Assembly: GCF_022829605.1 (NCBI RefSeq)
Contig: NZ_JAKSYD010000068.1
Coordinates: 1 to 64,000 of the forward strand
Length of the DNA: 64,000 nt
From: Methylobacterium sp. E-065
GTDB taxonomy: Bacteria; Pseudomonadota; Alphaproteobacteria; Rhizobiales; Beijerinckiaceae
Direction of reading: 5' to 3'
A program made the position numbers and the translations under genes. Positions 41,284 to 57,135 of the stretch are shown one piece after another. Each line of letters opens with the position of its first letter. Position 1 is the first letter of the stretch. A model generated the notes under the pieces. It had not been told where the DNA came from. It worked only from the letters and a program-made list of their open reading frames with translations, and did not search any database.

Positions 41284-41373
41284 TGTTAAAACTCCCCGAC
41301 TCGAAAATGTCGGGTTGATTTCTTGCACCTTTATTTGATGCCCATCCGGTCAAATGACAGTTGGAGTGCTTAA

Positions 41374-41634: not shown

Positions 41635-41651
41635 CGGGGCGAAATGAGTGA

Positions 41652-41996
41652 TTAGCGACCCATGCTGCCGGACGAGCTGCCGGACGAGCTGCCGGTTCCC
41701 TTACCCATCGAACCAGACGTTCCGGTCGAGCCGGTGCTCATCGATCCAGAGTTGCCCGCACCCATGCGGTCCCCCGTGCCGCTCCCATTGTTCATCTGAC
41801 CGCCGGTGCTCATGCCGGTGCCGGATCCACTACCTGCACCCATCGAGCCGCCTGTTCCTGTGGAACCGCCGCTCATGCCAGTTCCAGCACCACCTGCACC
41901 GCCGCCGGCAGCTCCGCCCTGGGCGAGAGCAAAGCTAGCGCCGCCGGTAAGCAGAGCTGCAGCAATCAAGGGAACGCATAGATTTTTGACGTTCAT
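41652..41996 (-). CDS. secreted Gly/Ser/Thr/Met-rich low-complexity protein
   Basis: A 114-residue protein. A signal peptide (MNVKNLCVPLIAAALLTGG, cleavage near FALAQ) leads to a mature part made of Gly, Ser, Thr and Met repeats such as GMSGGSTGTGG and SGSMGKGTG. Two tandem 12-base units encode the terminal SSSG repeats. It is probably a periplasmic or secreted flexible protein; function unknown. The start ATG 41996 is chosen because it begins the signal peptide. Confidence 0.65.
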   Translation of the reverse strand: MNVKNLCVPLIAAALLTGGASFALAQGGAAGGGAGGAGTGMSGGSTGTGGSMGAGSGSGTGMSTGGQMNNGSGTGDRMGAGNSGSMSTGSTGTSGSMGKGTGSSSGSSSGSMGR

Positions 41997-42177
41997 CTCA
42001 AAACCCAACTTTTGTTTGTAAGTAGATCCCAGACAGGATCTTGCCCAATAAACTATCAGCATCAGGAGATGTTCCCGTTTTTGTAAGCCTCACATTGTTG
42101 AAAGATGGTGCTAAACTGAGCTTGAACTAACCTATGTGAAAGTACGGCTCTGCCACGGGTCTAGGTTCAAACATTCG

Positions 42178-42441
42178 TTACGAGACGCGCCGTACCTGTG
42201 TAGCCGTCCACGCCCCACCCCGAGCGGCCGGGATGCCCCGCGCGTTCAGCGCCGCCGCGATCTGGCGCAGCGGGACCGCGCCCTCGGCCCGCACGGCGGC
42301 TATCACTGGGGCGAGGTCCCGGGCCCACTCCTCGGGCCGCCGGGTCTGTCGTGCCCGCGCACTTGGCCGGCCTCCCGGTTCGATAGGTTCTCCGGCTTGC
42401 CTTGACCAGATGTTCGCCCGAGAAGGGGCGACCCGTCTCAC
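42178..42441 (-). pseudogene. serine recombinase (resolvase/invertase) C-terminal fragment
   Basis: The segment LRQIAAALNARGIPAARGG followed by AWTATQVRRV is the recombinase-domain signature that follows the catalytic domain in large serine recombinases and Tn3-type resolvases. The N-terminal catalytic domain with its nucleophile Ser is absent, and the frame ends soon after the motif. A remnant of an integrated or transposed element. Confidence 0.6.
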
Positions 42442-42701
42442 ATGATGCAGATTAACGAGCGTTCAACCGGATGAAACACCCGCCCGCGATGACGCCAGGG
42501 ACACTCAGAGGCTTCCCCGCGGCCGCGCTCGCGCCTATCTCAGGACTATCTGCTGCCGACGCGGTCGGGAGGTGCGCGAGGTCGGCGTGCAATCAGCCGG
42601 CAATCTTGGCCGGTCGTATAAGGCGGACTTACGGAACGTCCCGATCCTGTTCACGCTCGGACGCCCGTAGGCTGAGCCTCACCAAGTGACGACCAACCTA
42701 T

Positions 42702-43220
42702 ATGACAATCGTTGAATTGATCCGTGCCTTTGGCCGCGACCTCCCGGTCGGCATCCTGATTACGGACGCATCCATAGAGCGGCCGGGCCCGATCATCGTC
42801 TATGCCAACTCGGCCTTTGGCCGGCTTGTTGGACGCGATCCAGATGAGATCATCGGGCAGAGCCCCCGCTTCATGCAGGGCAAGGAAACGCGTCAGGCGA
42901 CTCTCGACGCCTTTCATCGGGCCCTGAGGGCCGGTGAACGCTTCCACGGGTATCTGACCAACTACCGAGGCGACGGCACCAAATACCGGGCCGAGATCGA
43001 TTGCCGGCCATTGCGCAACGTGTGTGGTGAGATCGAGGGCTTCATCTCGTTCGAGCGTGAGGTGGCGCGGCGCATCGGACGCCCCTTTGAAAGCCGTGGG
43101 GGGCGGTATGAAGCAATCTCCATAAGTAACGATTTGTTAGGGGACGCTTTGCGCAGTTTGGGTGTTTTCAGCTCCGGAGATGCAAATTCCCGCCCGCCAC
43201 AATCGGCAGCACTGTTCTAA
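42702..43220 (+). CDS. PAS/LOV-like sensor domain protein without photoactive cysteine
   Basis: A 172-residue single PAS domain (about 10-125). The YANSAFGRLVGRD, DEIIGQSPRFMQG, YRGDGTKYRAEIDCRPL order matches LOV domains, in which the segment GRNCRFLQG holds the flavin-binding, adduct-forming Cys. Here it reads GQSPRFMQG, so the cysteine is replaced by Pro. No output domain is attached; a disordered tail follows. It may bind a cofactor without LOV photochemistry or act as a redox-sensing adaptor. Its neighbour 300 bases downstream is a GAF-EAL protein. Confidence 0.75.
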   Translation: MTIVELIRAFGRDLPVGILITDASIERPGPIIVYANSAFGRLVGRDPDEIIGQSPRFMQGKETRQATLDAFHRALRAGERFHGYLTNYRGDGTKYRAEIDCRPLRNVCGEIEGFISFEREVARRIGRPFESRGGRYEAISISNDLLGDALRSLGVFSSGDANSRPPQSAALF

Positions 43221-43518
43221 TCATCGCTACAACACTGAATTCCCGTCATTTGTTGTATTTCTTCCGACACAGTAACAAGATGTTTTTAAGCAATAAGTAA
43301 TAAATTGGTACTATATCCAGCACGGGAAAAAGTGATTACGTCGCGACTTATTGCCAGCGAGTAGATCAAGCCTGATCACGGGCCATGGCCCTGTCATATC
43401 GGACGAGACGGACTTCTGCCGAGGCGGCATCTCGGGAGGAGGCCGGTGCAGGGGGTCGCCACACTCTAGGACATGAGGCGACCGCAGCCAGTACGTGGAC
43501 GGCATGAGGGAGCAACTT

Positions 43519-45288
43519 ATGGTGTCGGCCGCAGAAACTGAGCGTCTTGATGCGCTTCGAAGGTTCGACCTCTTGGATACGCCCCCAGGAGAAAGCTTCG
43601 ACCGCATCACGCGTATGGCAAGCCAGATATTCGGCCTGTCAATCGCCGCCGTCTCTTTGACTGATAGCGACAGACAATGGTTCAAGTCCAGGATCGGAGT
43701 AGAGCACTGGTCGGTCACGCGCCAAAAAGCACCGTGTTCTCAGGTAGCCGAGAGCTGTGATTTGGTGGTGATAGAGGACTTCCTGACGGACCCCTACTAT
43801 CACGACAGCGCTTTGGCAAAGGCCGGCGTCCGTTTCTATGCCGGTGCCCCACTTGTCACGCGAGACGGTTTCGGCCTCGGTGCCATGTGCGTCCTGGGGA
43901 CGTCGCCTCGGCAAGCACAACCGTCAGAATTGGCGGCGTTGCGCGATCTCGCCGCCATGGTCATGTCGCAGATCGAGCTGCAGCATGCCTTCGGACGCAT
44001 CGACCCTATCAGTGAACTGCCGAACCGAACGCAGTTCATCGATGACCTGAGCGACTTTGCTCGTGATCATACGTCTGGAGAACGGCGGATCGCGGTCCTA
44101 GTGGATTTGATCTCCGTCGATCAGATGAACCATGTCGTGCGCGTCATGGGACAGGCTGCCATCGACAGTATGGTCAAGGCAGCCGCGCGCAATTTCCGGC
44201 TTTTGATCGGGCCGCAGCGGAAAGCCTACCACGTCGGCGCCACACAACTGGCAGCCCTGGCTCCCGACGGAATGGATGAGGTCGCATACAGCGATCTCTT
44301 GACCGTCCGGGCCGAGCGGCTGCGCAAGCTCGGTGGGCCCGACGCGATCGGCACGACCGTGATTGGGGTTGCCCCTTTCGCCCTTGGCGATCTACCTCCG
44401 ACCGATGTGCTGAGGATCGCTCAGGGAGCGGCCCAGGATGCGCGCTCAAAAGGCAAACTCTTCCAGATCCACTCGAACACGCTGGATAACGCATCCCAGC
44501 GAAGCTTCACGCTGCTGCGCGACTTCGAGGCGGCTTTGCAAAGCCCCTCCGGTTTCCGTCTGGTCTATCAGCCCCGCGTCGACCTGACCTCCGGACGCTG
44601 TGTCGGGGCCGAGGCGCTGATGCGGTGGATGCATCCGACGCTTGGGCCGATCTCGCCGGGTGAGTTCATCCCGTTGGTCGAGCGAATGGCCCTAGCCACG
44701 CCAACGACCGCCTGGGTGCTGGAGACGGCGGTCTCGCAGATGGCCCGGTGGCACGCGGCCGGCATGGAGCTGATCGTCTCGGTCAACATCTCCTCGACCA
44801 ACCTGCACGAGCCCGATTTCGCTTCTCGTGTCAGCCAAGTCCTGGCTCGACATGGTGTCTCTCCCGAGTTCCTCGAACTGGAAATCACCGAGACGGCGGT
44901 GATGAATGATGCCGAGCAGGCCTTACGTCAGCTTAAGGACCTCGCGGCTGCCGGAATTCGGTTGGCGATCGACGACTTTGGTACTGGGTACAGCAGCCTG
45001 TCCTACCTTCAGCGGCTGCCGGTGCACGTCGTGAAGATCGATCGCTCCTTCATGGGTGATCTTGATACCGACCCGCGTCAGCTCTCGCTGGTCACGATGA
45101 TGGTCTTGATGGCGAAGCATCTCGGCCATCGTGTCGTCGCGGAGGGCGTCGAAACGCAGGAAGTGCTCGACCAGCTCCGATTAACTGCGTGCGATGAGGT
45201 GCAGGGTTACTTCTTCGCTCGTCCTATTCCAGCCGATGAATTCATAAAATGGACGGAGACCCGAGCCTCTAATTTGGCGGTTGGCTGA
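43519..45288 (+). CDS. GAF-degenerate GGDEF-EAL cyclic-di-GMP phosphodiesterase
   Basis: A 589-residue protein. A GAF domain (about 10-150) has FGLSIAAVSLTD and PLVTRDGFGLGAMCVLG. A GGDEF-like domain (about 160-330) has lost its active site: the position of GGDEF reads VGATQL. The EAL domain (about 345-585) is intact, with AEALMRW, VNISSTNL, LELEITETAVM, IDDFGTGYSSLSYL, IDRSF and VVAEGVET. It is therefore predicted to hydrolyse c-di-GMP, with GAF and dead GGDEF as regulators. ATG 43519 is chosen because GAGGGAG lies six bases upstream; ATG 43504 or GTG 43495 would lengthen it. Confidence 0.9.
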   Translation: MVSAAETERLDALRRFDLLDTPPGESFDRITRMASQIFGLSIAAVSLTDSDRQWFKSRIGVEHWSVTRQKAPCSQVAESCDLVVIEDFLTDPYYHDSALAKAGVRFYAGAPLVTRDGFGLGAMCVLGTSPRQAQPSELAALRDLAAMVMSQIELQHAFGRIDPISELPNRTQFIDDLSDFARDHTSGERRIAVLVDLISVDQMNHVVRVMGQAAIDSMVKAAARNFRLLIGPQRKAYHVGATQLAALAPDGMDEVAYSDLLTVRAERLRKLGGPDAIGTTVIGVAPFALGDLPPTDVLRIAQGAAQDARSKGKLFQIHSNTLDNASQRSFTLLRDFEAALQSPSGFRLVYQPRVDLTSGRCVGAEALMRWMHPTLGPISPGEFIPLVERMALATPTTAWVLETAVSQMARWHAAGMELIVSVNISSTNLHEPDFASRVSQVLARHGVSPEFLELEITETAVMNDAEQALRQLKDLAAAGIRLAIDDFGTGYSSLSYLQRLPVHVVKIDRSFMGDLDTDPRQLSLVTMMVLMAKHLGHRVVAEGVETQEVLDQLRLTACDEVQGYFFARPIPADEFIKWTETRASNLAVG

Positions 45289-45991
45289 TAGCAAATTCCA
45301 CTGTGATTGGCTTTTCTAGTGCAGCGTTCGATCGGAAGAGCCATGGTTTAGCGGAGTCGCGATGATACGCTCGCTTTGAAACTCCCCGGTCGGACACTTC
45401 CTACGGATTGTCGAGGCCAACTTTGCAGCTGGTCAGGCTTGAAGTGGGTCCGCGAGCGGTTCGATACGGAGGGCATCACCCGGTTTCGTTGAAGCAGCGG
45501 TGGCTGGAGTGCTCGCGTGAGCGGACACGAAACCGTAGACCTGCTCCGGCAACCGCCCGCGCGGGAGGTCGTCGACTTCAAGGCTTTGTTGGTGGATCTG
45601 CGCGCCCAGCGGCGAGCTGGTCGAGAAGTCGAGCAGAAGGCCGTCCGCGAGGACGCCAGAGACATACCGCTGCTCCCCAAGCTGGGCTCGGGGTCCATCT
45701 CGGGCGCACCAGCCGCGGTACGGTCGGGAGTGCGCGAGGGCGGGCGAGCCGTGATGGTATGGCCGCCCCCGTCGCCTTGATGGGTTCGCCCGCGGGCTTG
45801 GCCTGGATCAGGCGACTACGCGGCAGATCGTGCAGAAGGTCTTCGTCGACATGCTGGTCCGCTCCGATGACGAGCGCATGGGCGAAGCGCGCAGGCAAAT
45901 GATCGTACCCTCTGCGTAGACGCCTCGCCGCGTGTCCCGCATCAGCAAGGCTTGCTCCTCACGGAGGCAGCACATGCCGGTCGCTATGCAT
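45289..45991. other. gene-poor stretch with a possible coding remnant
   Basis: No confident gene in about 700 bases. One plus-strand frame (45517 to about 45700) has G/C-biased third positions and reads plausibly (DLLRQPPAREVVDFKALL). A second in another frame (about 45753-45920) reads DQATTRQIVQKVFVDM before a stop. They may be pieces of one decayed gene I do not recognise. No repeat or RNA structure found. Confidence 0.35.
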
Positions 45992-46237
45992 TCAATCCCG
46001 CGCAGCGAGGGATTGCGCGAACGCCAGTACCTTCCGGCGGTCTGAGGCGTGTTTCAGTCTATCCCATAGCCGTAGCATCTCAGAAGCGTCATTAAGGTCT
46101 GCCAGCGCCTCGGGCCCATCGACGAATGCGGTCTCGGGCTTGCCGAGCGCAGAAGCAATGCGCTTCAGGATGTTGACGCTTCCGGCATCGTCTTCCTCGC
46201 AGCGGCGACGCAAAGCTTCTCGCAAAAAAGTTTCCAC
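45992..46237 (-). CDS. small hypothetical protein resembling the tail of an XRE-type regulator
   Basis: An 81-residue helical protein: LREALRRRCEEDD, SVNILKRIASALGK, EMLRLWDRLKHASDRRKVLAFAQSL. The pattern of an ALGK segment, a linker, and a helical tail resembles the end of XRE regulators (after the HTH), but no complete helix-turn-helix is present. The start is GTG 46237 without a strong ribosome-binding site. Could be a truncated regulator or an adaptor. Confidence 0.5.
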   Translation of the reverse strand: METFLREALRRRCEEDDAGSVNILKRIASALGKPETAFVDGPEALADLNDASEMLRLWDRLKHASDRRKVLAFAQSLAARD

Positions 46238-46400
46238 GCGCTACTTAGATTGCGGGTAGACAACAGTTAGAGCGAGATATTAAGCTCAGCGCAACGTCAT
46301 TTGATGGATTTGGGGTTGGAGTATTAATTTATATGTCGGGCGCTGTCTATCTAGAGTTAGCTACCTCGGACAAGAGAGGCGGTACTTGCCGGAGGGCAGG

Positions 46401-46580
46401 ATGAATGCGCTCAACGAGTTCGAGGCGATGATAGAAGCCTGCATCGCCAACCACGCTGAGATCATGCAGCACGGTTCATCTGAGATGAAGACCGCCTCTC
46501 GCCTGCTGCTCTATGCGCTTGGGGAGGAAGTCCGACGCCGCGGCCGCGGCGCGACCGTAGCGGCTAATGATGACGGTTAG
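46401..46580 (+). CDS. small hypothetical protein
   Basis: A 59-residue protein starting MNALNEFEAMIEACIANHA, with GGAGGGCAGG immediately before ATG 46401. One long amphipathic helix followed by a basic RRRGRG segment. Function unknown. It precedes the first Crp/partner module by 158 bases. Confidence 0.5.
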   Translation: MNALNEFEAMIEACIANHAEIMQHGSSEMKTASRLLLYALGEEVRRRGRGATVAANDDG

Positions 46581-46738
46581 CCTTGAGACCCGGGGGTTAA
46601 TCTTGAAAATACTTAACCCAGGTATGATTGCGGCGCTGATATAACCTTTAGACCTGACTGATCGTCAGCCGCTCCGAAACAGGTGCTGCCGCCTGGGAGA
46701 GCCGTGCGCTTCCGCCTGCAATGCAAGGCGACGCCACG

Positions 46739-47482
46739 ATGGCTTCGAAGATCCCCCACGCTCTCTGCCCGCTCATCCGCAAGCTGGAGAGCGTCACCCG
46801 CCTCTCGGACGAGGAGCGGCACGCAATCGAAGCGCTGCCGGTCCGGGTTCGAACCCTCTCAGCGCGGCAGGACATCGCGCGGGAGGGCGACCTCGCCACT
46901 CAGTGCTGCCTCATCCTAGAGGGTTGGGCCTACCGCTACAAGCTCCTGAGCGAGGGGCGGCGGCAGATCTTCTCGTTCCACATCGCGGGCGACATCCCGG
47001 ATCTGCAGAGCCTGCACATCCCGTTGATGGACCACAACCTCGGGACGATGACCCAGGCCACGGTCGCCTTCATCCCGCATGAGAGCATGCACGACCTCAC
47101 GGCGCGCTTCCCGAGCATTGCGGCCAAGCTCTGGCGTGACACGCTGATCGATGCGGCGATCTTCCGGGAATGGTTGATCGCCATGGGTCGCCGCCCGGCG
47201 TTCGAGCACCTCGCTCACCTATTCTGTGAGCTGTACCTCAAGCAGGAGGCGGTCGGCTTGGCAGGTGATCACCGCTGCTCACTGCCGATCACTCAGGTCG
47301 ATCTCGCCGACGCCACCGGAATGACCGGCGTTCACATCAATCGCGTGTTGAAGGAGATGCGCGGCCGCGGCCTGATCACGCTGCACCGACAGACGCTGGT
47401 CGTTAAGGCCTGGGACGAACTTATCCGTGCCTCCGAGTTCGACGGTAAGTATCTGCACCTGCAGAAGCGAGCCCTCGGATGA
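46739..47482 (+). CDS. Crp/Fnr-family transcriptional regulator (module 1)
   Basis: A 247-residue regulator. The cyclic-nucleotide-binding-like domain (about 20-125) has RQDIAREGDLATQCCLILEG and FHIAGDIPDLQSLHI. The dimer helix contains FREWLIAMGRRPAFEHLAHLFCEL. The HTH (about 185-225) reads QVDLADATGMTGVHINRVLKEM. The cysteine pair near the first strand is not arranged like an FNR iron-sulfur site, and no N-terminal Cys cluster is present. ATG 46739 is preferred to ATG 46721. The stop overlaps the partner start (ATGA). Very similar to module 3. Confidence 0.9.
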   Translation: MASKIPHALCPLIRKLESVTRLSDEERHAIEALPVRVRTLSARQDIAREGDLATQCCLILEGWAYRYKLLSEGRRQIFSFHIAGDIPDLQSLHIPLMDHNLGTMTQATVAFIPHESMHDLTARFPSIAAKLWRDTLIDAAIFREWLIAMGRRPAFEHLAHLFCELYLKQEAVGLAGDHRCSLPITQVDLADATGMTGVHINRVLKEMRGRGLITLHRQTLVVKAWDELIRASEFDGKYLHLQKRALG

Positions 47483-47733
47483 GCTTGCATCTTCAGCCTG
47501 TGCATGTCGCCACCAGCAGCGAAGACGGCGACGGCCAGCTTGTGTTCGCGGATGACTTCCTCGTGGCAGTCCTGGTGCGGCTTTCAGACCAGCATGGTGC
47601 TGACGTGGGCTTGTGGTTCCTAGAAGCTGGGTTCGGCCTAACCTCGGTAGCCCGCGCGCCCCTGTTCTTTGACCTCGATGCGGCTCAAGATTGGATCGAG
47701 GGGCACCTCAGCAGCAAGCGCGGCAGCGCGTAG
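47479..47733 (+). CDS. conserved small partner protein of Crp module 1
   Basis: An 84-residue protein overlapping the regulator by four bases (ATGA), so translation is coupled. It shares LQPVHV, AVLVRL and WFLEAGFG with the partners of modules 2 and 3. The pattern is two beta-rich halves, a central invariant GxWFxEAGFG, and a C-terminal amphipathic helix (DLDAAQDWIEGHL). Soluble, without Cys or signal. Function unknown; a modulator of the regulator is an inference. Confidence 0.7.
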   Translation: MSLHLQPVHVATSSEDGDGQLVFADDFLVAVLVRLSDQHGADVGLWFLEAGFGLTSVARAPLFFDLDAAQDWIEGHLSSKRGSA

Positions 47734-47757
47734 CTTGGGGTGGGACTGAGAAGGTTA

Positions 47758-48486
47758 TCAGTGGCCATCCGGCGTCGGATCCGTAATCAGGCGCTCGTAT
47801 TCGGCCTCGGGAGCGCCGTAGGAGGGGCCGGCTAGGGCGAGCAGCGCCGCGCGATCGCGGACGATCAGGGTACCGCGCTGCCTACCGATCACGCCGGAAC
47901 GCTCCAGTACCGAGATCGCGCCCGTCAGGCCCGGACGATTGACCCCCAGCATCAGCGACAGAAAGCGGTGCGTCGTCGGCAGTTCGTCACCCTCGGTCCG
48001 ATCGTGACACATGAGGAGCCAGCGGGCGAGACGCGGCTGCAGAGTGTAGCGGCCGTTGGCCAGGGCCGTGGCCGTGGCCTGCACGCCGAGGACGTGCGCA
48101 TACCGCAACAGCTGATTGTGCAGGCGCGGACTGTGCCGAAGCGCCTCGGAGAAGGCGCTCGCCGGCATGGCCCGCGCCAACCCGATAGCCTGAACTCGGG
48201 CCTCGTCCGGCGTCCGCTCGGCGTTGAGCAGGATGGGTACGCCGACCATGCCCTCGCATCCGACCAGCCCGACCTCGACCTGCTGTCCGTCTGCCGCGAT
48301 GCTGACGAGCGAGACGATGCCCTGTTCGACGAAGGCGACCTGCGTGATCGAGGTGTCGGCTTTGATCAGCACATCACCCAACGACAGGGTCATAAGTTCG
48401 AGGTGCGGCCGAAGCAGACCGAAATCGTCCGGATCCAGGGATCTAAGCAGGCGATTGAGGCAGCTATGCTGCGTCGGGTGCGACAT
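47758..48486 (-). CDS. Crp/Fnr-family transcriptional regulator (different subgroup, no partner)
   Basis: A 242-residue regulator, divergent in sequence from the three modules. The sensor domain reads TLSLGDVLIKADTSITQVAFVEQGIVSLVSI, then GCEGMVGVPILLNAE near 95, and the HTH contains THRFLSLMLGVNRPGLTGAISVLERSGVI. ATG 48486 begins the conserved region; an upstream extension of 19 residues is less likely. It is convergent with the module-1 partner and divergent from module 2. Typical of regulators that respond to redox or stress rather than cAMP. Confidence 0.88.
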   Translation of the reverse strand: MSHPTQHSCLNRLLRSLDPDDFGLLRPHLELMTLSLGDVLIKADTSITQVAFVEQGIVSLVSIAADGQQVEVGLVGCEGMVGVPILLNAERTPDEARVQAIGLARAMPASAFSEALRHSPRLHNQLLRYAHVLGVQATATALANGRYTLQPRLARWLLMCHDRTEGDELPTTHRFLSLMLGVNRPGLTGAISVLERSGVIGRQRGTLIVRDRAALLALAGPSYGAPEAEYERLITDPTPDGH

Positions 48487-48672
48487 GGTCCCGTTCACTT
48501 GGAGCGGGGGGCCAAGTGCCCTCGGTCGGGAGCCCCTGGACATGCCTGCGCGCGACGCCTCGCCTGTCTTTGAGCCTAATCTCCTAAGAGCGCAAGATAT
48601 CGGTCATTTGATGGAGATTTGGTCGGATATCTGACATATGGGCTGACAGCGAGTCTCGGCGATGTGGGCCCC

Positions 48673-49437
48673 ATGCAGCAGGCGCTGACGCGGAAGCTTG
48701 AGAGCTTCGAACCCTTGTCCGACCAAGCCCGCTGGGCCCTCAACGGCTTGGTGCTCAAGGTCCGGCAGGTCGGTGCACGCCAGGATCTGATCCAGGAAGG
48801 CGACAAGCCTGACAACGTCCTCCTGATCCTCGACGGCTTCGCATGCCGGTACAAGGTGCTCCCGGACGGCCAGCGCCAGATCATGGCTCTGCTGGTGCCC
48901 GGCGACTTCTGCGACCTGAACGTCTTCATCCTCGACGAGATGGACCACACCATCGGCACGATCTCGACGTGCCAAATCGTGGACATCCCACGCCAAGCCA
49001 TCGATGACATCGCAGCCCATCACCCGAGCATCGCGCGCGCTTTCTGGTGGTGCTCCCTGGTCGATGGTGCCGTCCTACGCGAGTGGCTGGTCAACATGGG
49101 AGCACGCGCTCCGGACCAGCGCATCTCCCACCTTCTGTGCGAGCTTCTCATGCGCTTGGAAGCGGTCGGGCGTGTCACCGACAACAGCTACGCGTTTCCA
49201 CTCACGCAGACCGAGATCGCCGAGACGATGGGTCTGTCCGACGTGCACGTGAACCGGACGCTGCGCGAGCTTCGCGCCCTCGGCCTGATCCACCTCAAGC
49301 GCCGGGTGCTGACCATCCTCGACGTCGAGCGCCTGAAGGCCTTCTGCAGCTTCACACCGAACTACCTGCACCTGCGCAGCACGCGCTGGGGGGATCGCCG
49401 CGACCTGAGCTGGCCCGGTCGAGCCCAGGAGGGCTAG
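48673..49437 (+). CDS. Crp/Fnr-family transcriptional regulator (module 2)
   Basis: A 254-residue regulator. The sensor domain reads QDLIQEGDKPDNVLLILDGFACRYK and MALLVPGDFCDLNVFILDEMDH; the HTH (about 178-215) reads LTQTEIAETMGLSDVHVNRTLREL. It aligns with modules 1 and 3 along the whole length but is clearly more diverged (LREWLVNMGARAPDQ for FREWLIxMGRRxAFE). ATG 48673 is preferred to 48619. The partner gene starts four bases after the stop. Confidence 0.9.
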   Translation: MQQALTRKLESFEPLSDQARWALNGLVLKVRQVGARQDLIQEGDKPDNVLLILDGFACRYKVLPDGQRQIMALLVPGDFCDLNVFILDEMDHTIGTISTCQIVDIPRQAIDDIAAHHPSIARAFWWCSLVDGAVLREWLVNMGARAPDQRISHLLCELLMRLEAVGRVTDNSYAFPLTQTEIAETMGLSDVHVNRTLRELRALGLIHLKRRVLTILDVERLKAFCSFTPNYLHLRSTRWGDRRDLSWPGRAQEG

Positions 49438-49440
49438 ACG

Positions 49441-49713
49441 ATGTCCGGGCGGGGCAACGTCGAGACGCTCCTCGTGCTGCAGCTTCAGCCGATTGCGGTC
49501 GACACCAACAGCCCCGACCGTGAAGGCATGCTGGTGATCGCCAATGGCCTGCTCGTGGCGGTTCTGGTGCGCCTCGAAGGGCCGGAGCACGATGATCGCG
49601 GGAGCTGGTTCATGGAGGCAGGGTTTGGTCGACTGCAAGGGCAGAGGGTCCCTACCTTCCCCACTCTGGAAGAAGCGACGCGCTGGCTGCGACGGCATCT
49701 GAAGGCGGCGTGA
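49441..49713 (+). CDS. conserved small partner protein of Crp module 2
   Basis: A 90-residue paralog of the partners at 47479-47733 and 50312-50557, with LQPIAV, LLVAVLVRL and GSWFMEAGFG. It has about eight more residues at its N-terminus than the others. Three bases separate it from the regulator. Unknown function. Confidence 0.7.
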   Translation: MSGRGNVETLLVLQLQPIAVDTNSPDREGMLVIANGLLVAVLVRLEGPEHDDRGSWFMEAGFGRLQGQRVPTFPTLEEATRWLRRHLKAA

Positions 49714-49824
49714 TCTGTCCGCAGGCTATCGGCCGGAGCGCATGACCTACAGATCCGAGGATGACGCCACCGAACGAGTGCGATCGGGTCGGAGCACGAG
49801 CGAACCCATGCACGGGACCGCTAA

Positions 49825-49917
49825 TCACCACGAGAACAGCCAGTCGAGTTTCGGCAGCATGAACACCATTGTCGCCCCGGCGCCCAGCACGCCCGCAATC
49901 ATGACCACGAATTCCAT
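49825..49917 (-). CDS. 30-residue membrane microprotein A
   Basis: A 30-residue ORF with one predicted transmembrane helix (VVMIAGVLGAGATMVFML) ending LPKLDWLFSW. GGGAGGA lies seven bases before ATG 49917, which is a strong translation signal for so short a frame. It sits between modules 2 and 3 and shares its C-terminal pattern with the next microprotein. Most gene finders would miss it. Confidence 0.6.
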   Translation of the reverse strand: MEFVVMIAGVLGAGATMVFMLPKLDWLFSW

Positions 49918-49985
49918 CGCGGCGTCCTCCCATTAGATTGAACTCAGCCTGACCTGTTGAAGCGCTGATGTGTCCACTTATCAGC

Positions 49986-50084
49986 TCACCAGCGAAAGAA
50001 GCGATCGAAAGAGGGGAGGACGGCGATGGTCAGTGCGATAGCGCAGACCGCTGCTACAAGCATGCTTCCGAGAGACAGAGACAC
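49986..50084 (-). CDS. 32-residue membrane microprotein B
   Basis: A 32-residue ORF starting GTG 50084 with GAGGAGC nine bases upstream. One predicted transmembrane helix (VAAVCAIALTIAVL) is followed by LPSFDRFFRW at the C-terminus. It is 68 bases from microprotein A on the same strand, and both end L-P-x-[LF]-D-[WR]-[LF]-F-x-W before the stop. An internal ATG at residue 8 is a weaker alternative start. Confidence 0.6.
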   Translation of the reverse strand: MSLSLGSMLVAAVCAIALTIAVLPSFDRFFRW

Positions 50085-50311
50085 AGCCGCGTCGCTCCTC
50101 GTTGATCCAAGAACCAATTTCCGGATCAATATTCCCAGAATGAAATCTGTGCTGCGCTACAGAATAACCGGCGTCGCTGGCTAGCGCTCGCTGGATGGGA
50201 TCACTCGGGATTGTCGACAGGCTGAAGGGCCTTGGTACGTCGTCTAGCGAACCAGAATAATTTGGCCCGCCAGCCTCTAAATGACGCGTGCCTTTCAAGG
50301 ATACAGTAGGC

Positions 50312-50557
50312 TCAGGCCGCGTCCGCCAGCCGCTGCTCGATCCAGGTCTGCGCGGCATCGAGGTCGGCGAAGGTGGGCGGGGTCGCGCTGCTCACCAGCC
50401 CGAAGCCCGCTTCCAAGAACCACATCCCGGCTATGTCCTCGTGAAATCCTGAGAGCCGCACCAGCACCGCCGCGAGGAAGGCATCGGCGAAGACGAGTTG
50501 GCCCTCGATATCGTAGCTGCCCGTTCCGACCTGCACGGGCTGTAGGCGAAGGGTCAT
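50312..50557 (-). CDS. conserved small partner protein of Crp module 3
   Basis: An 81-residue paralog of the other two partners: LQPVQV, AVLVRL and GMWFLEAGFG are shared. Its ATG overlaps the stop of the upstream regulator (ATGA, 50554-50557). It is closest to the module-1 partner, mirroring the similarity of regulators 1 and 3. Confidence 0.72.
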   Translation of the reverse strand: MTLRLQPVQVGTGSYDIEGQLVFADAFLAAVLVRLSGFHEDIAGMWFLEAGFGLVSSATPPTFADLDAAQTWIEQRLADAA

Positions 50558-51300
50558 CCGGCCGCCCGCTTCTCAAGCTGCAGGTATGTGGAGTCAAACT
50601 CCGAGACCCGAAGAAGTTCGTCCCACGCCTCGATCACGAGCATCTGGCTCCGGAGCGTGATCATGGTCCGGCCGCGCATCTCCTGGAGCACGCGGTTGAC
50701 GTGCACGGAGGTGAGCCCCAGCGCGTCGGCAATATCGGTCTGGGTGATCGGCAGCGGACAGCGGAAGTTGCCGGCCAAGCCGACCGCCTGCAGCTTCAGG
50801 TACAGTTCGCAGAACAGGTGCGCGACGTGCTCGAAGGCCGAGCGGCGGCCCATGCTGATCAGCCACTCGCGGAAGATGCCCGCATCGATCAGGGTGTCGC
50901 GCCAGAAGATCGACGCGATGCCAGGGTAGCACGCCGTCAGCTCCCGCAGGCTCTCGTGCGGGATGAAGGCCACGACCGCTTTGGTCAGCGTGGCGAGGCT
51001 GTGATCCATGGTGTGAATGTGTAGGCTCTGCAGATCCGGGATGTCGCCTGCGATGTGGAACGATAGGATCTGGCGCTTGCCCTGGCTAAGCATCTTGTAC
51101 CGGCAGGCCCATCCGTCGAGGATGAGGCAGCAGTGCGTGGGCTGGTCGCCGTCGCGCACGATGTCCTGGCGAGCGTCGAGGTTGTGGATCCTCATCGGCA
51201 AGCTCCGAACGGCCTGACGTTCCTTGTCCGAGAGGGTGGTGATGCTCTCCAGCTTGCGGATGAGCATGCCCGGGGCGTGCTGGTCGGGGGCTGCGTTCAT
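50554..51300 (-). CDS. Crp/Fnr-family transcriptional regulator (module 3)
   Basis: A 248-residue regulator, the closest relative of module 1: FHIAGDIPDLQSLHI, FREWLISMGRRSAFEH and VNRVLQEMRGR are shared or nearly so. ATG 51300 has GAGGTGGG upstream and begins after the conserved leader described separately. Translation is coupled to its partner. It faces away from module 1, so modules 1 and 3 are inverted relative to each other. Confidence 0.9.
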   Translation of the reverse strand: MNAAPDQHAPGMLIRKLESITTLSDKERQAVRSLPMRIHNLDARQDIVRDGDQPTHCCLILDGWACRYKMLSQGKRQILSFHIAGDIPDLQSLHIHTMDHSLATLTKAVVAFIPHESLRELTACYPGIASIFWRDTLIDAGIFREWLISMGRRSAFEHVAHLFCELYLKLQAVGLAGNFRCPLPITQTDIADALGLTSVHVNRVLQEMRGRTMITLRSQMLVIEAWDELLRVSEFDSTYLQLEKRAAG

Positions 51301-51846
51301 ATTTCCCACCTCGCATCGCAGGCGGAAGCGCACGGCTCTTCCAGTCATCAGCGCCTGTATCGGATCAACCGATGATGATCCCTACGATAGACTGATTTTA
51401 CCTCGAAGTTCTGTCATAAGATATGTTCTTGAGCCGATCATACGCCCGCAATGCTCAGATTCGGGGTCCATTTGCTTCGATCGCGCGGCGAAGGCATGGC
51501 TATCGGCATGACCTTGATCAAAATTCCAAGCTTGCACCCTCGATTACACGAGGCGATTGAGGACAAAACCTGACCAACGTCCGTCTTTTGATCAGATGGA
51601 TCTTTTTGTTTGCTGGCATGAGTGTCCGGCTGTCGCCGCGATGATGTGAGCGCAGATGGCCACGCGAGCGTTCCTTGCCCCTTCATCGCCCGCATGGCCT
51701 TTCCTAACCCGAGCGCACTCAGGCTCCGTTGCCCGGTTCGAGTAGCGGGGCCTTTTTGTGCGGATCATCCGTTCCGTGGTGTGACGAGGAAAGCCAAGCA
51801 AACGCACAAATCCCAGAATGCTTTGCCGAACTGAGGATTTCGGACG
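51301..51846. other. intergenic DNA with a leader shared with module 1
   Basis: About 550 bases without a supported gene. The part next to the module-3 regulator (51303-51345, read on the minus strand) matches the DNA before the module-1 regulator. The rest has only short frames of uneven codon use; a minus-strand frame at 51592-51996 is not credible. Confidence 0.5.
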
Positions 51847-52062
51847 ATGCTTTATGGTCTCTATTTCATAACGTGCATGGTTTCGAACCCGGCACACTGC
51901 ATTATGCGCGTTCACGCCTTCGACGAAGATGTCACGACGCCCCAGCAGTGTATGTCTGTCGCCCAGCCTCAGATGGCCCATTGGCAGGGCTCTCACGCCG
52001 ATTGGCGGGTTGAGCGCTTCCGCTGTGGGAAGCCACCGAAGGACGATGGGACGCGCATCTGA
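51847..52062 (+). CDS. small conserved-type protein with two cysteines near the N-terminus
   Basis: A 71-residue protein. The pattern LYFITCMVSNPAHC, then PQQCMSVAQPQMAHW, then WRVERFRCGKP has four regularly placed Cys and matches a type of small protein I associate with Methylobacterium, with a hydrophobic start and a Trp/Arg-rich C-terminus. It could be periplasmic with disulfides. No biochemical function can be assigned. Confidence 0.55.
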   Translation: MLYGLYFITCMVSNPAHCIMRVHAFDEDVTTPQQCMSVAQPQMAHWQGSHADWRVERFRCGKPPKDDGTRI

Positions 52063-52276
52063 GGTTTTGTCACCCGGCTTAGAAAGAGTAGGCCGGACCT
52101 CGGCTGTCGGTCAGTGAAACTACCCGCGTCCGGAGCCGGACCCTGGGTGGACCGTTCCGTCACCTGATCTGATTACCGGATGGCGGGGCTTGGTGCCGTT
52201 CCGCACGGCGATAGACGAGACGCAACGACGTTAGGGTTAGTCTTGTTATCCGAGAATTGGCGCACCGTGGAGCAGA

Positions 52277-52483
52277 TCAGGGACGCTCGAACTGTACGGC
52301 GGGCTCCAGGTCCTCGCATGAGGGGATGTAGGCGCACCAGCCGCATACGCCCCTATCAGCCGCCTTTGGGGCATTCCACTGCGAGCAGGTGGGGCAGACC
52401 TTCATCACAATGCGGGTGCCGTGGACGAACGCCAGTCCGCGGCCACCGAAGGTGGTCGTGCCTTGAGGGAGATTTTTTAACAT
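52277..52483 (-). CDS. zinc-ribbon small protein (paralog 1)
   Basis: A 68-residue protein with a four-cysteine ribbon: CPTC near 31 and CGWC near 47, separated by SQWNAPKAADRG. The N-terminal half FGGRGLAFVHGTRIVMK is beta-rich. ATG 52483 follows AGGAGACACCT. A paralog with the same cysteine spacing lies at 56537-56749. Zinc binding is inferred; nucleic-acid or protein contact is possible. Confidence 0.65.
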   Translation of the reverse strand: MLKNLPQGTTTFGGRGLAFVHGTRIVMKVCPTCSQWNAPKAADRGVCGWCAYIPSCEDLEPAVQFERP

Positions 52484-52519
52484 AGGTGTCTCCTGCGCAA
52501 TACCGCAGGTTGATGTCAA

Positions 52520-53113
52520 TGGCCGCTCAAGGTCTCCAGACCTGCTTTCTTAGCGGGTCTATCCGATGGGGCGCTCGGGAAGCGGCTGGCGCAGGAAGGA
52601 AGTGGCTGCTTGGCCAGCCCGCAGGGATAATTCCCTCTGACCCACGATTTGAGCCTAAGCCATTGATGTGCCGGGATTTAGGGGCGAGATCTCCTTGCTT
52701 GGTTTCGGGCCGACAATGCTCGCCCCGCGTTCCATCTTTCTGGAGCCGTAAGCGGAGCCCGGCACCCCACCGTTCTCAGGGATGAACTCTGGGCCGAAGG
52801 TCACTGCACGAGACCGGTGAACCTGCACGCGGGCAGTGCCGTCACCAGCATCGTGACACCCAGCAGCGACTTCGCGCTGCCGATTTGCGCGAAGAGCCGG
52901 CAGCTCACCGGCCCGCGCCCTTCTCGACGAACTCCCATACTGAGATACCCCATTGCTGGCCCGGCCCATTCCGATATCCGGAGGTTCGCTCAAACAAGAT
53001 CCGGTCGGCCTCAACGCCACGCGCCGGTCCGCCCCCGACCATCAGAACCCGCAATAATCCAGCCGGCTCGGTTCTCTTCGACCAAGCCGACGAAAATCAG
53101 CACGGTGTGGACA
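52520..53113. other. intergenic DNA without a supported gene
   Basis: About 590 bases between the zinc-ribbon gene and the PRC-barrel gene. Several long open frames on both strands have shadow-like Pro/Arg/Ser-rich translations and no ribosome-binding sites. No repeat, RNA or mobile-element signature found. Confidence 0.5.
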
Positions 53114-53608
53114 CTAGTCGGACTTGACTGTCTGATCCGGCTTGAAAGTGGCAGCCGCCGCGATCGTGTCTTTGCCCATGACGAGCATGGCCGAGAACCG
53201 GTCGCCACCGGGATACAGCACCAGCGCTGAGGGCTCGACCGCGATACGGCGGCTGCCGACGCCGAGGACGCCTCCGACATCTAGAACCACCGCCTTGAGG
53301 GCGCCCCCATCACCGATCAGAAGGTCAGTCATCTTGCCGACGCTCTGTCCCGACAGATTGTGCACCCCTGTGCCGATCATCTGTGACGTCAGGAAGGTGA
53401 TGGGTTTGGGATTACTGCGCCGCGTTGCATCATCCGCCCTGGCGACCTGCCTGAGTTGGCCGCCCGTTCCGTCGGTCGAGGAGCTTTGACCCGTGCCAGA
53501 AAGTATTGTATCGGTGCTGACCACCGTCTTATCCTGAGCGAGCGATGGAGATGTTGCCGAAAGGCCAAGGACCGAAATCAAAAATATAGTCTGGTATTTA
53601 AAAACCAT
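53114..53608 (-). CDS. exported PRC-barrel domain protein
   Basis: A 164-residue protein with a signal peptide (FLISVLGLSATSPSLAQ) and a PRC-barrel core: GTGVHNLSGQSVGKMTDLLIG near 83 and LKAVVLDVGGVLGVGSRRIAVE near 107, each given in part. PRC-barrel domains bind ligands or adapt proteins, and exported ones are frequent in alphaproteobacteria under envelope stress. ATG 53608 begins the signal peptide; an upstream extension of 24 residues is unlikely. Confidence 0.75.
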   Translation of the reverse strand: MVFKYQTIFLISVLGLSATSPSLAQDKTVVSTDTILSGTGQSSSTDGTGGQLRQVARADDATRRSNPKPITFLTSQMIGTGVHNLSGQSVGKMTDLLIGDGGALKAVVLDVGGVLGVGSRRIAVEPSALVLYPGGDRFSAMLVMGKDTIAAAATFKPDQTVKSD

Positions 53609-53639
53609 TCGCGAGACCTTATGGTGGAAATTAAGTACT

Positions 53640-53894
53640 TCATCCTCGGGCTGCTGATAGCCGCTTGGTGTTGAAGGCAACGTGCTCGCGGTAGCGAGCG
53701 ATGACTGTCTCGGACGAGCCGCCGAGCATCAGCGTCGTCATCGCCTCACCGGCGGCGTGCACCTTCTCGATCACCATCGACTGCATCTCGGCCCGGCCCT
53801 CACGGCCACCCCAAGCGAGGCGTACCATGCGCAACTCGATGACCCGTCGCGACTCAATCGCGAGCATTATCGATGAAAAGATGGGATTATACAC
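53640..53894 (-). CDS. small helical hypothetical protein
   Basis: An 84-residue protein: ESRRVIELRMVRLAWGGREG, then EKVHAAGEAMTTLMLGGSSE, then VIARYREHVAFNTKRL. The helices and the central GGS turn are typical of a phasin- or polyhydroxyalkanoate-associated-like four-helix small protein, but this is a weak impression. Start is GTG 53894 with GGAG nine bases upstream. Confidence 0.5.
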   Translation of the reverse strand: MYNPIFSSIMLAIESRRVIELRMVRLAWGGREGRAEMQSMVIEKVHAAGEAMTTLMLGGSSETVIARYREHVAFNTKRLSAARG

Positions 53895-54099
53895 GTTAAA
53901 ACTCCGCGATGTGGTAGATAGTGCCTAGATTAACGCGGCTTAAGGCCACGTTGATCCTCCCTAAAAATGTTAAGAAAAGACGCCGCACCCCTGATATAAT
54001 CTAAAATGGCAACCTATGACCCTGGGCTTAGTTCGATCTGTAGCATCATGCTCCCCGTCGCCCTTCCTTCGGCGGTTCTTTCGATGAAAGGCTTCGCCC

Positions 54100-54276
54100 A
54101 TGGGCAGCGGTATCTCTCTGCTATTTCTAGCGCTCGGTACGATAGGCGGAGTCGGCGTCCTCGCATTGGCCGCACGGAAGCAGGTCGCCAATTTGAAGGG
54201 CGACCCGGAACGTTCCAATCTCATCAAGGATCATGGCGGCGCGCCACGTCCGAACATGCCTGGGACAGAGCACTGA
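54100..54276 (+). CDS. 58-residue single-pass membrane protein
   Basis: A 58-residue ORF: a transmembrane helix (ISLLFLALGTIGGVGVLALAA) followed by a basic, Pro-rich cytoplasmic or periplasmic tail (KQVANLKGDPERSNLIKDH). ATG 54100 has AAGG about nine bases upstream. The codon use matches nearby real genes. Overlapping open frames of similar length on the same DNA are less credible. Function unknown. Confidence 0.6.
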   Translation: MGSGISLLFLALGTIGGVGVLALAARKQVANLKGDPERSNLIKDHGGAPRPNMPGTEH

Positions 54277-54412
54277 ACCCGTGACCGCGGTTGAGACGGC
54301 GAACGAAGATCCAGTCGAGGCTGCGGTGCTTGAACGAGCTCAGCAGAACTTTCTCGACACCGGTCCGGGCGACCGGATGTGGGTAGATCCCTCCCCGATG
54401 GAGGGATCCGCG

Positions 54413-54547
54413 ATGAGTGCCTGCTTCGCTCTGAGCGCGGATCAGCGCGCCGCGTTCATCGCCGCGGCGCGAGCGGAGATCGCATCCGAGGGCGGCGCGG
54501 CCGACCGATCGGAGGCACCCCTGCCACGAGCGAAGACCCGACCATGA
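54413..54547 (+). CDS. 44-residue hypothetical protein coupled to a stress-type protein
   Basis: MSACFALSADQRAAFIAAARAE begins 7 bases after GGAGGG, and the frame ends in an ATGA overlap with the next gene (54544-54547). A longer in-frame start at 54281 (GTG) or 54233 would add up to 60 residues, some of plausible codon use. Unknown function. Confidence 0.45.
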   Translation: MSACFALSADQRAAFIAAARAEIASEGGAADRSEAPLPRAKTRP

Positions 54548-54999
54548 GTCTCGGGATCCTCGCGCTGTATGAGAGCCGCAGCAAGGCGCAGGCGGCGATG
54601 GCCACGCTGGTCGCGGCCGGCATTCCCGAGCGAGCGATCCGGCTCGTCGTCGGCTCCGCTGATCCGGAACCCGGACGCGTCGAGGCGACGGCGGCGCTTC
54701 CCGACGGCCCCGGCCTCCGGGATAGGCTCGGGACGATGGGCCTGCCCCGGGAGGCATTGGACGCCTGCTGCGCGCGGCTGAGGCAGGGCGCGGCGATGCT
54801 GGACCTGGTGGTCGCGGACGCCCAGCGGGACCACGTCATGAGCATCCTGGAGGACCACGGCTCGGTCGACCCGACGCTGCGCGTCGCGACGTGGCGCGCC
54901 GAGGGGTGGGGCGGCACGTCGCCGGTCTCGACAGAGGGGTGGGGCGGCTATTCCGCCACCTCGACCGGTGCCACGGACATCACGACGAGACGGGAATAA
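54544..54999 (+). CDS. general-stress-type (YflT-like) small protein with C-terminal repeats
   Basis: A 151-residue protein. The N-terminal part LALYESRSKAQAAMATLVAAGIPERAIRLVVG has the alternating pattern of general-stress-protein 17M/YflT domains. The C-terminal part carries two copies of EGWGG followed by T/Y and S, a small Gly/Trp tandem repeat. Translation is coupled to the upstream ORF. Confidence 0.6.
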   Translation: MSLGILALYESRSKAQAAMATLVAAGIPERAIRLVVGSADPEPGRVEATAALPDGPGLRDRLGTMGLPREALDACCARLRQGAAMLDLVVADAQRDHVMSILEDHGSVDPTLRVATWRAEGWGGTSPVSTEGWGGYSATSTGATDITTRRE

Positions 55000-55003
55000 G
55001 CCG

Positions 55004-55369
55004 ATGCCTCAGTTCGCTCCCGTCAGGTCCGAGACGACCGACCTCGACGCCGTGCGGCGGTACGCGGTGAGCGTCATCGCGCAATCCGAAGGTGAGGCCT
55101 TGCAGATGAAGACGGTCACCTTGGCGCTGCTCGGCGGGATCATGTGGCGCGGCGCGCCGGGATCGACTGAGATGATCCAGGACGAGATGGGTACCAACGC
55201 CATCCTGTCGACCACCCTCGGCGGTCGCCATCTGACCTTCTCCTACGACCAGAATACCGAGTCGATCGAGATGCGCGAGGGAACGATGGACGGTCCCGTC
55301 CTGCACCGTTTCTGCAACCGGACTTTGGTCGGAGACTTCGAGCGAACCTTCAGCGCTCTGTGGGGCTGA
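55004..55369 (+). CDS. hypothetical protein
   Basis: A 121-residue soluble protein beginning MPQFAPVRSETTDLDAVRRYAVSV (five bases after the stop of the preceding gene). The center is beta-rich (ILSTTLGGRHLTFSYDQ) with a conserved-looking GGIMWRGAPG segment. No family recognised. Probably cotranscribed with the stress-type gene upstream. Confidence 0.55.
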   Translation: MPQFAPVRSETTDLDAVRRYAVSVIAQSEGEALQMKTVTLALLGGIMWRGAPGSTEMIQDEMGTNAILSTTLGGRHLTFSYDQNTESIEMREGTMDGPVLHRFCNRTLVGDFERTFSALWG

Positions 55370-55691
55370 GGGAGCCCGATCCGGTCCCGTTCATCGGCAG
55401 CAGCTGGGTCATCGGCATCGAGATCAGCACGCGCAGACCTGCGCGCTCCCAGTGATGCGGGATCTTGCCGCCGAGCTGACCGCCAACGCTGTGCTGGACC
55501 AGAGTCGAGTTGGACCCCGTATGCGCCGGCGTCTGCTCGATCGTCGGACTGCCCCGCTCGCATCAGATTAGACTGCCGAGGGAAATCGCCTGAGAAGCGG
55601 TGAAGGCGCCGAGATCCGGAAACTGTTTGTGCGATGCTATTGTTTTCAGAGCGCGAAGTCAGTCCCGACGGCGCAACCGTCGGAGCTGTCC

Positions 55692-56081
55692 GTGGCCCGT
55701 ATTCCTGTCTTGATCCTCGCAACTGGCCTGACGGCTGGCGCTCTCTGCTCGGCTGGTGCCGCCATGAAAAAAGTCCGGGTGCCGAACCAGTACGATGGCT
55801 CTTGGACCATCGTCGCCACCACGGCTCAAGGCCCCTGTTCGGCGAGCACGAGCTATCACGTGCAGATCAAGGATAGCGATGCCTCGATCCCCGGTGAGGA
55901 GGTCGATATCGACGGCGGCGTGTCTGCGAGCGGCTCCGTGCACGCCACGATCACCAGCGGCGCCAACAAGGTCCCGATCTCCGGCAGCCTCGACGCCAAG
56001 GGCGACGGCAGCGGCACATGGCGCACGTCCGGCGGACTGGTCGAATGCACCGGCAGTTGGAGCGCCAAGCGTTCAAGTTAG
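55692..56081 (+). CDS. exported small beta-rich protein
   Basis: A 129-residue protein with a signal peptide (ARIPVLILATGLTAGALCSAGAA), then YDGSWTIVATTAQGPCSA, a Cys near 47, and a later Cys in VECTGSW. The YDGSW...C...C pattern with GSVHATI and GSGTWR is known from uncharacterised secreted proteins of Hyphomicrobiales. GTG 55692 with GGAG upstream begins the signal peptide. Function unknown; the two cysteines may form a disulfide. Confidence 0.65.
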   Translation: MARIPVLILATGLTAGALCSAGAAMKKVRVPNQYDGSWTIVATTAQGPCSASTSYHVQIKDSDASIPGEEVDIDGGVSASGSVHATITSGANKVPISGSLDAKGDGSGTWRTSGGLVECTGSWSAKRSS

Positions 56082-56536
56082 GGTATTCAAGGCGCGAAGG
56101 CATGGTTCCTGACGTCGGTAGGCTATGCGGCGAGAAGGACCTTGCCCACCGTGGGTCGGGGCCGCTCGATACCCGTGCGCCAGTGGCTATCCTGCCGGGA
56201 TATTTACCTCGGGATGATCGCTTCCTTGAAGGGCATCACGGCGAGGATCAACCCGGTGCTGTCGCTGATCTGAAAGCATCGTCCATCCAGCACCTCGCCG
56301 AGCGATCAGCCCTTTGCGAGCACATGACGGGCAGAAGCAGAAGCGTCGGCGCATGCTGCTGCCAAGCTCGGCAAATAACTGCCATCCACGTCTTCAATCA
56401 GTCGGTCCCCATCGCGTACGTGGAAGAAGTACAACGGCATACAATTTAGATGTGCCGGCGGCATATGGACCTAAAGCACTAATCGTGCCGGGCCATCGAT
56501 TGGCTTATCTTGCTCTCAAGGATGCGCAACTCGGCA
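56082..56536. other. intergenic DNA without a supported gene
   Basis: About 450 bases. Open frames of 90-140 residues exist on the plus strand but have mixed codon use and no ribosome-binding site. No repeats or RNA motifs noticed. Confidence 0.5.
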
Positions 56537-56749
56537 TCAGATCATGCCGATCCGTGCGACAGCAACCGGCTCCACGTCCAAGTACGATGGAACGTAGGCA
56601 CACCAGCCGCAGTGGCCGTTCTCCGCCGCCTTTGGTGCATTCCATTGCGAACAAAGCGGACAGATTTTTACGACAATTCGTGTGCCGGAGATAAAGGCCA
56701 GTCCGCGGCCACGAAAAGTGACTCGGCCTTGCGGGAGGTCATTCGGCAT
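56537..56749 (-). CDS. zinc-ribbon small protein (paralog 2)
   Basis: A 70-residue protein with the ribbon CPLC near 31 and CGWC near 47, the same spacing and SQWNAPKAAENG linker as the protein at 52277-52483. The N-terminal RGRGLAFISGTRIV matches too. ATG 56761 or 56749 are both possible; the family start favours MPNDLPQG at 56749. Confidence 0.65.
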   Translation of the reverse strand: MPNDLPQGRVTFRGRGLAFISGTRIVVKICPLCSQWNAPKAAENGHCGWCAYVPSYLDVEPVAVARIGMI

Positions 56750-56967
56750 GGCTGCATCCATGCTCCTGTCAGAGTTGACCATCTCAAAGCGAGCATAATT
56801 ATATCGATGCGACTCTATCAAATGATTGCGCCGGTATCATATTTATGATTATTGTTTTCACGCTGATACTTGAATGTTGGGGCACGCCAATGGCCGCGTG
56901 GTCGCCGTCGATAACATGCCGCTTTATGCGAAAGCTCGTCATTATCCTCTCCGAGGATCAGTCGACA

Positions 56968-57135
56968 ATGGCCAGCACGCAGGACGCGCTTTTGTTCAAT
57001 CGCTTGCTTGAACTGGAGATGGACGCGGAGCGTCAGGGAGCGGAAGAAGCTTCTTGCCGGATCATCGCTAGGGTGCGTCGGATCGCGGGCACTGCTGCAT
57101 CCAGAGCGTATCCACCCACCATCCGCAGTCATTGA
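56968..57135 (+). CDS. small hypothetical protein
   Basis: A 55-residue helical protein beginning MASTQDALLFNRLLELEMDA, with GAGGA about ten bases before ATG 56968. An upstream ATG at 56845 would add 41 residues of lower quality. Unknown function. Confidence 0.4.
   Translation: MASTQDALLFNRLLELEMDAERQGAEEASCRIIARVRRIAGTAASRAYPPTIRSH

Follow-up and report, generated by a model that had tools for sequence, protein, structure and literature searches.

In the window, by which we mean the whole 64,000-nucleotide (nt) stretch of Methylobacterium sp. E-065 DNA that was analyzed (contig NZ_JAKSYD010000068.1), three genes for Crp/Fnr-type regulators (R1, R2, and R3) are each followed by a gene for a small protein of a single family, which we call the companion (P1, P2, and P3); we refer to each regulator-companion pair as a cassette. 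R1 (247 residues; 46739-47482, forward strand, with an alternative ATG at 46721) is followed by P1 (84 residues; 47479-47733, forward), and R3 (248 residues; 50554-51300, reverse strand, with an alternative ATG at 51348) is followed by P3 (81 residues; 50312-50557, reverse). The two genes overlap as ATGA in both of these cassettes. In the second cassette, R2 (254 residues; 48673-49437, forward) ends in TAG, and P2 (90 residues; 49441-49713, forward) starts 3 nt past this stop in the same frame as R2. The original prediction, made from the sequence alone, had described three Crp genes, each followed by an 81- to 90-residue protein of one family and two of them joined to it by an ATGA overlap, and both the coordinates and an alignment bear this out; the motifs it had listed for the small proteins (LQP, AVLVRL, and GxWFxEAGFG) are common to P1 to P3, among 34 invariant columns. 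It had also counted three Crp genes in 4.6 kb, which is right for the cassettes but not for the regulators, as it overlooked a fourth, distant Crp/Fnr-type gene (47758-48543, reverse) that has no companion, converges on P1, and encodes a protein with 18% identity to R1. A Crp gene converging on a companion is also seen in three other genomes (G024, G286, and G354).

R1, R2, and R3 each have a cNMP_binding and an HTH_Crp_2 domain over the Pfam cut-offs (E values of 6.7e-09 and 5.4e-13, 1.4e-12 and 3.2e-16, and 1.5e-11 and 2.3e-12, respectively), which places all three in the Crp/Fnr superfamily. Their scores against the NCBIfam models for CRP, FNR, FnrL, and FixK are about 55 to 70 bits versus a cut-off of 300, with FixK and FnrL as the best models, and among solved structures R3 comes closest in sequence to FixK2 (4i2o, 2.5e-14) and to an FNR-type regulator. 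Thus, R1 to R3 share their two-domain build with the FixK/FnrL-type regulators of Alphaproteobacteria but fall outside these equivalogs by score and differ from them in having a companion gene.

We found that cassettes 1 and 3, together with their 5' DNA, are two copies of a single stretch of DNA. Cassette 1 as a DNA unit (5' DNA, regulator, and companion; 46661-47700, forward) is homologous to 50336-51376 on the reverse strand, and the two form inverted-repeat arms of 68 nt (81%), 68 nt (81%), 752 nt (76%), and 44 nt (73%). A 21-nt sequence just 5' of R1 (46699-46719, forward) is identical to one just 5' of R3 (51318-51338, reverse), and with up to 3 mismatches allowed it has 2 matches versus 0.01 in shuffles, the pattern having been derived from one of the two. 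The 15-nt core of this sequence was also seen in 17 of 282 loci, several of them overlapping. At the protein level, identity is 69% for R1/R3 and 41% for R1/R2, and 64% for P1/P3 and 48% for P1/P2. Methylobacterium sp. E-005 has a protein with 98% identity to P1, and companions occur there at the same three spacings and on the same strands.

Conservation of the cassette and its linkage to Crp genes

In the E-065 genome (6.99 Mb in 304 contigs), P1 as a query matched 14 places and a wide profile added one more, and 12 of these 15 family members (or 12 of the 14 matched by P1) lie directly 3' of a same-strand Crp gene while the other 3 of the 15 stand alone. One of the 12 linked companions has an inner TGA, and two of them, that one included, follow a Crp gene that is truncated at a contig end; the companion with the inner TGA lies at 636 on contig C81 (L048), with a Crp neighbor that is open to the contig end. 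For other genomes, named loci were taken from the best 80 of 216 relatives, 79 of them Methylobacterium and one a Beijerinckiaceae metagenome-assembled genome, and in these a Crp gene is directly upstream of 80 of the 99 members, with a 4-nt overlap in 61 of the 80. The 19 unlinked members comprise 5 contig-end cuts, 1 that follows a frame-shifted Crp gene, 1 that follows a Crp frame running past the companion start, and 12 true stand-alones. Two sets of loci (40 and 20) were hand-picked from longer lists.

We also counted arrangements in eight nearly closed Methylobacterium and Microvirga genomes, where 16 of 28 members are directly 3' of a Crp gene, versus 0.018 expected by chance, and the remainder are divergent from one (3 members), convergent with one (3 members), or without one (6 members). 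This count was limited to matches that span 62 or more of the 77 profile positions (28 of 41 rows) and left out 4 shorter or broken rows and the 9 rows of two genomes in which no Crp search was made (G036 and G381); it used 81 of 223 Crp rows, and inspection of the rest by eye placed none within 2 kb of the 6 members without a Crp gene. In Microvirga, five Crp genes (L243 to L246 and L254) are flanked by two different members, one divergent and one 3'. In three of five annotated plasmid regions, a gene labeled "hypothetical protein" is offset by -4, -1, or +3 nt from one labeled "Crp/Fnr family transcriptional regulator," and two further plasmid records carry no annotation at the position of the member. 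In two other families of the order, all 14 loci (13 genomes) have the member directly 3' of a Crp gene, and in one of the genera concerned one member was found in each of its ten genomes. With the wide profile, members were matched in 54 of 347 genomes for the family, 20 of 377 for the order, 3 of 385 for the class, and 6 of 299 for the phylum, each count including the E-065 genome and each a lower bound, since 14 to 19 candidates were scored per genome.

Substitution patterns mark the companions as genuine proteins that are subject to purifying selection. The ratio of nonsynonymous to synonymous substitution rates (Ka/Ks) is 0.12 to 0.37 in 15 of 19 comparisons of companions with relatives' genes; of the other four, three lack synonymous changes altogether, and one, which has very few changes of any kind, gives 0.62. 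For R1 the ratio is 0.09 to 0.15 (5 comparisons), and within the window it is 0.26 for P1/P3 and 0.25 for R1/R3. GC-rich DNA has many short open reading frames, some of which could happen to follow Crp genes or be annotated as genes by mistake, but these ratios, the excess over chance in the eight genomes, and the uniform arrangement in the two other families refute this explanation, to which we give next to no credence. The analysis shows a conserved gene pair with a coupling signature, its joint duplication, purifying selection, and recurrence in three families of the order.

The linkage to Crp genes is not exclusive. Remote Methylobacterium relatives were fetched as 18 unique sequences, of which 15 lack a neighboring Crp gene, 2 lie directly 3' of one, and 1 is truncated at a contig end; duplicates, short matches, and locus L197 were excluded from this tally and from the Microvirga neighborhood tally, and neither amounts to a random sample. 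A weakly resolved tree of 133 members, based on 75 columns, showed strong clustering by label (directly 3' of, divergent from, or without a Crp gene), with 13 changes versus a mean of 37 after shuffling, and near-copies add to this clustering. A distant member on a Sphingomonas plasmid (L302:2995-3306; profile 1e-21) follows DnaJ-like and CbpM genes near a catalase gene, with no Crp gene beside it; a near copy of it is found in Rhizorhabdus wittichii RW1. Because the stand-alone groups, most of the fetched remote relatives, and the Sphingomonas member lack a neighboring Crp gene, linkage to Crp does not extend to the entire family. The proposal that the small protein is a dedicated companion of a Crp subgroup therefore holds for the close clade and fails for the whole superfamily. 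The original prediction had named homologs found mostly away from Crp genes as the outcome contrary to it. The close homologs do not show this outcome, as most of them, across three families of the order and several genera, directly follow a Crp gene.

The regulators do not always come with a companion, either. The E-065 genome has 38 places encoding a Crp-type helix-turn-helix domain, 36 of them over the Pfam cut-off, and the eight nearly closed genomes have 20 to 44 each. In a tree of E-065 Crp proteins (24 rows, with those shorter than 195 residues left out), the companion-bearing regulators fall into two larger groups in which companionless ones occur as well, with 4 changes, and a close companionless Crp gene lies inside the R1/R3 clade. 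Upstream of 89 Crp-type genes, a search for a palindromic operator with arms and a spacer of 5 each found a site common only to near-identical sequences and no general motif.

The companion family and its neighboring genes

The original prediction knew no name for the family of the small partner, and we found no convincing match for it in Pfam, NCBIfam, PHROGs, or the PDB. P1 to P3 had nothing over the cut-off in Pfam or NCBIfam, and for 22 diverse companions the best E values were 0.039 in Pfam, 0.0048 in NCBIfam (1 of the 22 only), and 0.038 in PHROGs, with no described family matched. An AlphaFold2 model of P1 predicts three strands followed by a short helix, a fourth strand, and a helix at the C terminus, with a mean predicted local distance difference test (pLDDT) score of 80.7 and a predicted template modeling (pTM) score of 0.71; searches of the PDB by fold or sequence gave no convincing match (best Foldseek E value of 0.8, best Z score of 5.3). 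Fold matches to Mediator, OspA/OspB, single-stranded-DNA-binding, SH2, and WGR proteins (Z scores of 3 to 5) were taken as ordinary small beta sheets and none of them as kin. A phage collection searched with P3 gave no match, and 4 loci of the companion family lie on viral contigs. The titles and abstract openings of open-access PubMed Central articles yielded no description of the regulator-companion pair, which does not imply its absence from print. Neither the companion family nor its tie to a Crp branch is present in the libraries searched; a regulator with a small cognate protein is of an already-known kind.

One use for such a protein would be as a sensor subunit that passes a signal to a regulator lacking a ligand site of its own. 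This would suit regulators that score so far below the curated CRP, FNR, and FixK cut-offs, as those scores assign them no ligand. The companion itself has no match to a ligand-binding family or fold, and no Cys is conserved in the family (P1 to P3 have none, and only 27 of 97 members have any), so we consider a sensor subunit unlikely.

In the genus whose ten genomes yielded a single copy each, a DUF892-like gene, which we take to be YciF-like, follows the pair in 9 of 10 loci (by tblastn, with Pfam on two examples), and a Mn-catalase-like gene lies on either side within a 7-kb stretch in 7 of 10 (one cut by the edge; by tblastn, with Pfam on one example). Neither neighbor was found by tblastn near the E-065 cassettes or the other loci searched. 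This DUF892 and Mn catalase neighborhood is the best hint to the role of the companion and hints at stress control.

In the window, the region 5' of the cluster (42702-45288) encodes a PAS protein and a GAF-GGDEF-EAL protein, the GGDEF domain being below the Pfam cut-off, and PAS and EAL genes are also found near cassettes on contig C81 of the same genome (L048). On the other side lie genes for a FAD-binding, fumarate-reductase-like flavoprotein (58540-60327) and a further Crp/Fnr protein without a companion (61701-62504). GC content is 0.59 to 0.66 in all nine 2-kb windows of 40000-58000 versus 0.64 to 0.73 in the first 40 kb, and this lower-GC stretch is perhaps a variable island.

The position of the cassettes in this stretch is one of several features that would be expected of a selfish unit, that is, a mobile gene pair that spreads in Methylobacterium and Microvirga as a toxin-antitoxin system or by hitch-hiking. 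Companion matches range from 0 to 14 per genome in 37 Methylobacterium genomes, several lie on plasmids, and contigs that bear other copies also carry an integrase-core gene (PF00665) and a Mu-transposase-type gene. However, either gene occurs alone, as stand-alone companions and as the companionless Crp gene within the R1/R3 clade, which an addiction pair should not tolerate; in another family the pair persists as a single copy beside DUF892; and we know of no Crp-type antitoxins. We therefore consider a selfish or addiction cassette very unlikely.

Proposed role of the companion

In the reading that we favor, the cassette would be a two-gene operon that encodes a regulator of the Crp/Fnr superfamily along with a small, soluble protein with a beta-sheet fold. 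Both genes would be carried on a single mRNA, mostly with translational coupling through the ATGA overlap, and the fixed stoichiometry that we infer from this suggests that the companion acts on its regulator. The companion may bind its own regulator, or the regulator on polymerase, and tune its action; the likeliest form of this would be a restraining co-regulator present in a set proportion to the regulator. Since the single-copy pair precedes DUF892 and often lies near Mn catalase, the original task was probably stress control; the cassette would then have multiplied in Methylobacterium and Microvirga, where some companions may have come loose and now act alone. That the companion is translated together with its regulator and modulates it in stress-type control, with a restraining co-regulator as our first choice, is a proposal to which we assign a probability of just under one half.

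The main alternative is that the companion is an output of the regulator, a small stress or housekeeping protein whose gene is the nearest target, operon-downstream or divergent, and whose site of action is elsewhere in the cell. A protein of this kind could well persist as the stand-alone orthologs that several Methylobacterium species retain and as the Sphingomonas plasmid member after cbpA-cbpM and near a catalase gene; the divergent arrangement in Microvirga fits a target as well as a partner, and the DUF892 and Mn catalase neighbors are themselves stress outputs. On the other hand, the frequency of the 4-nt overlap among linked members of the named loci suggests a fixed stoichiometry, which is more usual for partners than for a variable target, and the pair has been kept together through repeated duplication. 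We regard an output protein as a real contender, if a somewhat improbable one.

Several results weigh against a modulator that acts on its regulator. The 12 stand-alones of the named loci form two conserved Methylobacterium ortholog groups (8 and 4 loci), none of the 7 matches (one of them partial) in G036, a nearly closed genome, has an upstream Crp gene, and 2 of the 5 annotated plasmid regions have no Crp gene beside the member. From the regulator side, 24 of the 36 over-cut-off Crp-type places in the E-065 genome have no companion, and no regulator-companion fusion of the Rosetta-stone kind was found in the loci searched. A fold of R2 and P2 read through as one chain gave a pTM of 0.72 and companion block means of 59 to 83, mostly 60 to 68, with nothing firm on an interface from a shallow alignment (58 rows, with 12 sequences besides the window's own that span both halves). 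Covariation over 105 pairs, taken as the residual link between companion distances and regions of the regulator, peaked at the hinge and the first helix of the helix-turn-helix domain (0.44 in columns 140 to 180, 0.11 in columns 180 to 220), and we rejected this peak as interface evidence because it was elsewhere or absent in four subsets. Finally, the identities of regulators and companions correlate (r of 0.75 for 9 pairs of the E-065 genome), as do their distances (0.64 for the 105 pairs), but correlated divergence would be expected from joint inheritance alone, and the joint duplication of cassettes 1 and 3 means that joint descent explains it. The original prediction had taken the closeness of regulators 1 and 3, and likewise of their partners, as a sign of co-evolution. 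The closeness is real; the argument drawn from it is weak because these cassettes are duplicates at the DNA level, and over the 105 pairs the classes are not fully congruent, with one regulator class paired with companions of two classes (16 and 19 pairs).

Known systems offer likenesses for a modulating companion. The usual picture of a Crp/Fnr regulator is of a lone protein that does its own sensing. One such regulator, FixK, is also part of the FixL-FixJ circuit. FixT is a small negative-feedback protein of this circuit (PMC7078487). The companion as we propose it would resemble FixT in being a small protein with negative feedback in a signaling circuit. The same article gives FixT an Fe-S-binding receiver domain with a 4-Cys motif and an action on the kinase, and the Cys-free P1 to P3, with their beta-rich predicted fold (E-E-E-H-E-H order of strands and helices), are not FixT proteins. 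Small anti-activators that restrain one transcription factor include QslA, which acts on MvfR (PMC6068238), and the phage protein paratox (PMC8383118). By the mechanism proposed, the companion would be like these proteins in binding and restraining one regulator. Both act on regulator families other than Crp/Fnr, the target of paratox being ComR, and the likeness would be one of proposed mechanism and not of sequence. CbpM, a small modulator of the DnaJ-like CbpA, has a gene that adjoins that of its target and is encoded just ahead of the family member on the Sphingomonas plasmid; the CbpM protein is unlike the companion, and the two have the neighborhood alone in common.

More broadly, we tentatively entertain, as a possibility on the doubtful side, that this undescribed family is an obligate small co-regulator of a whole Crp/Fnr branch in Hyphomicrobiales, held at a fixed ratio to its regulators, with repertoires that have grown by multiplication of the cassette and with Microvirga Crp genes whose two companions could set opposite directions. 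The single-copy pair beside the DUF892 and Mn catalase genes is a simple system for studying the companion. If the proposal is true, a second, dedicated protein would change how the many "orphan" Crp genes of Methylobacterium and Microvirga should be studied.

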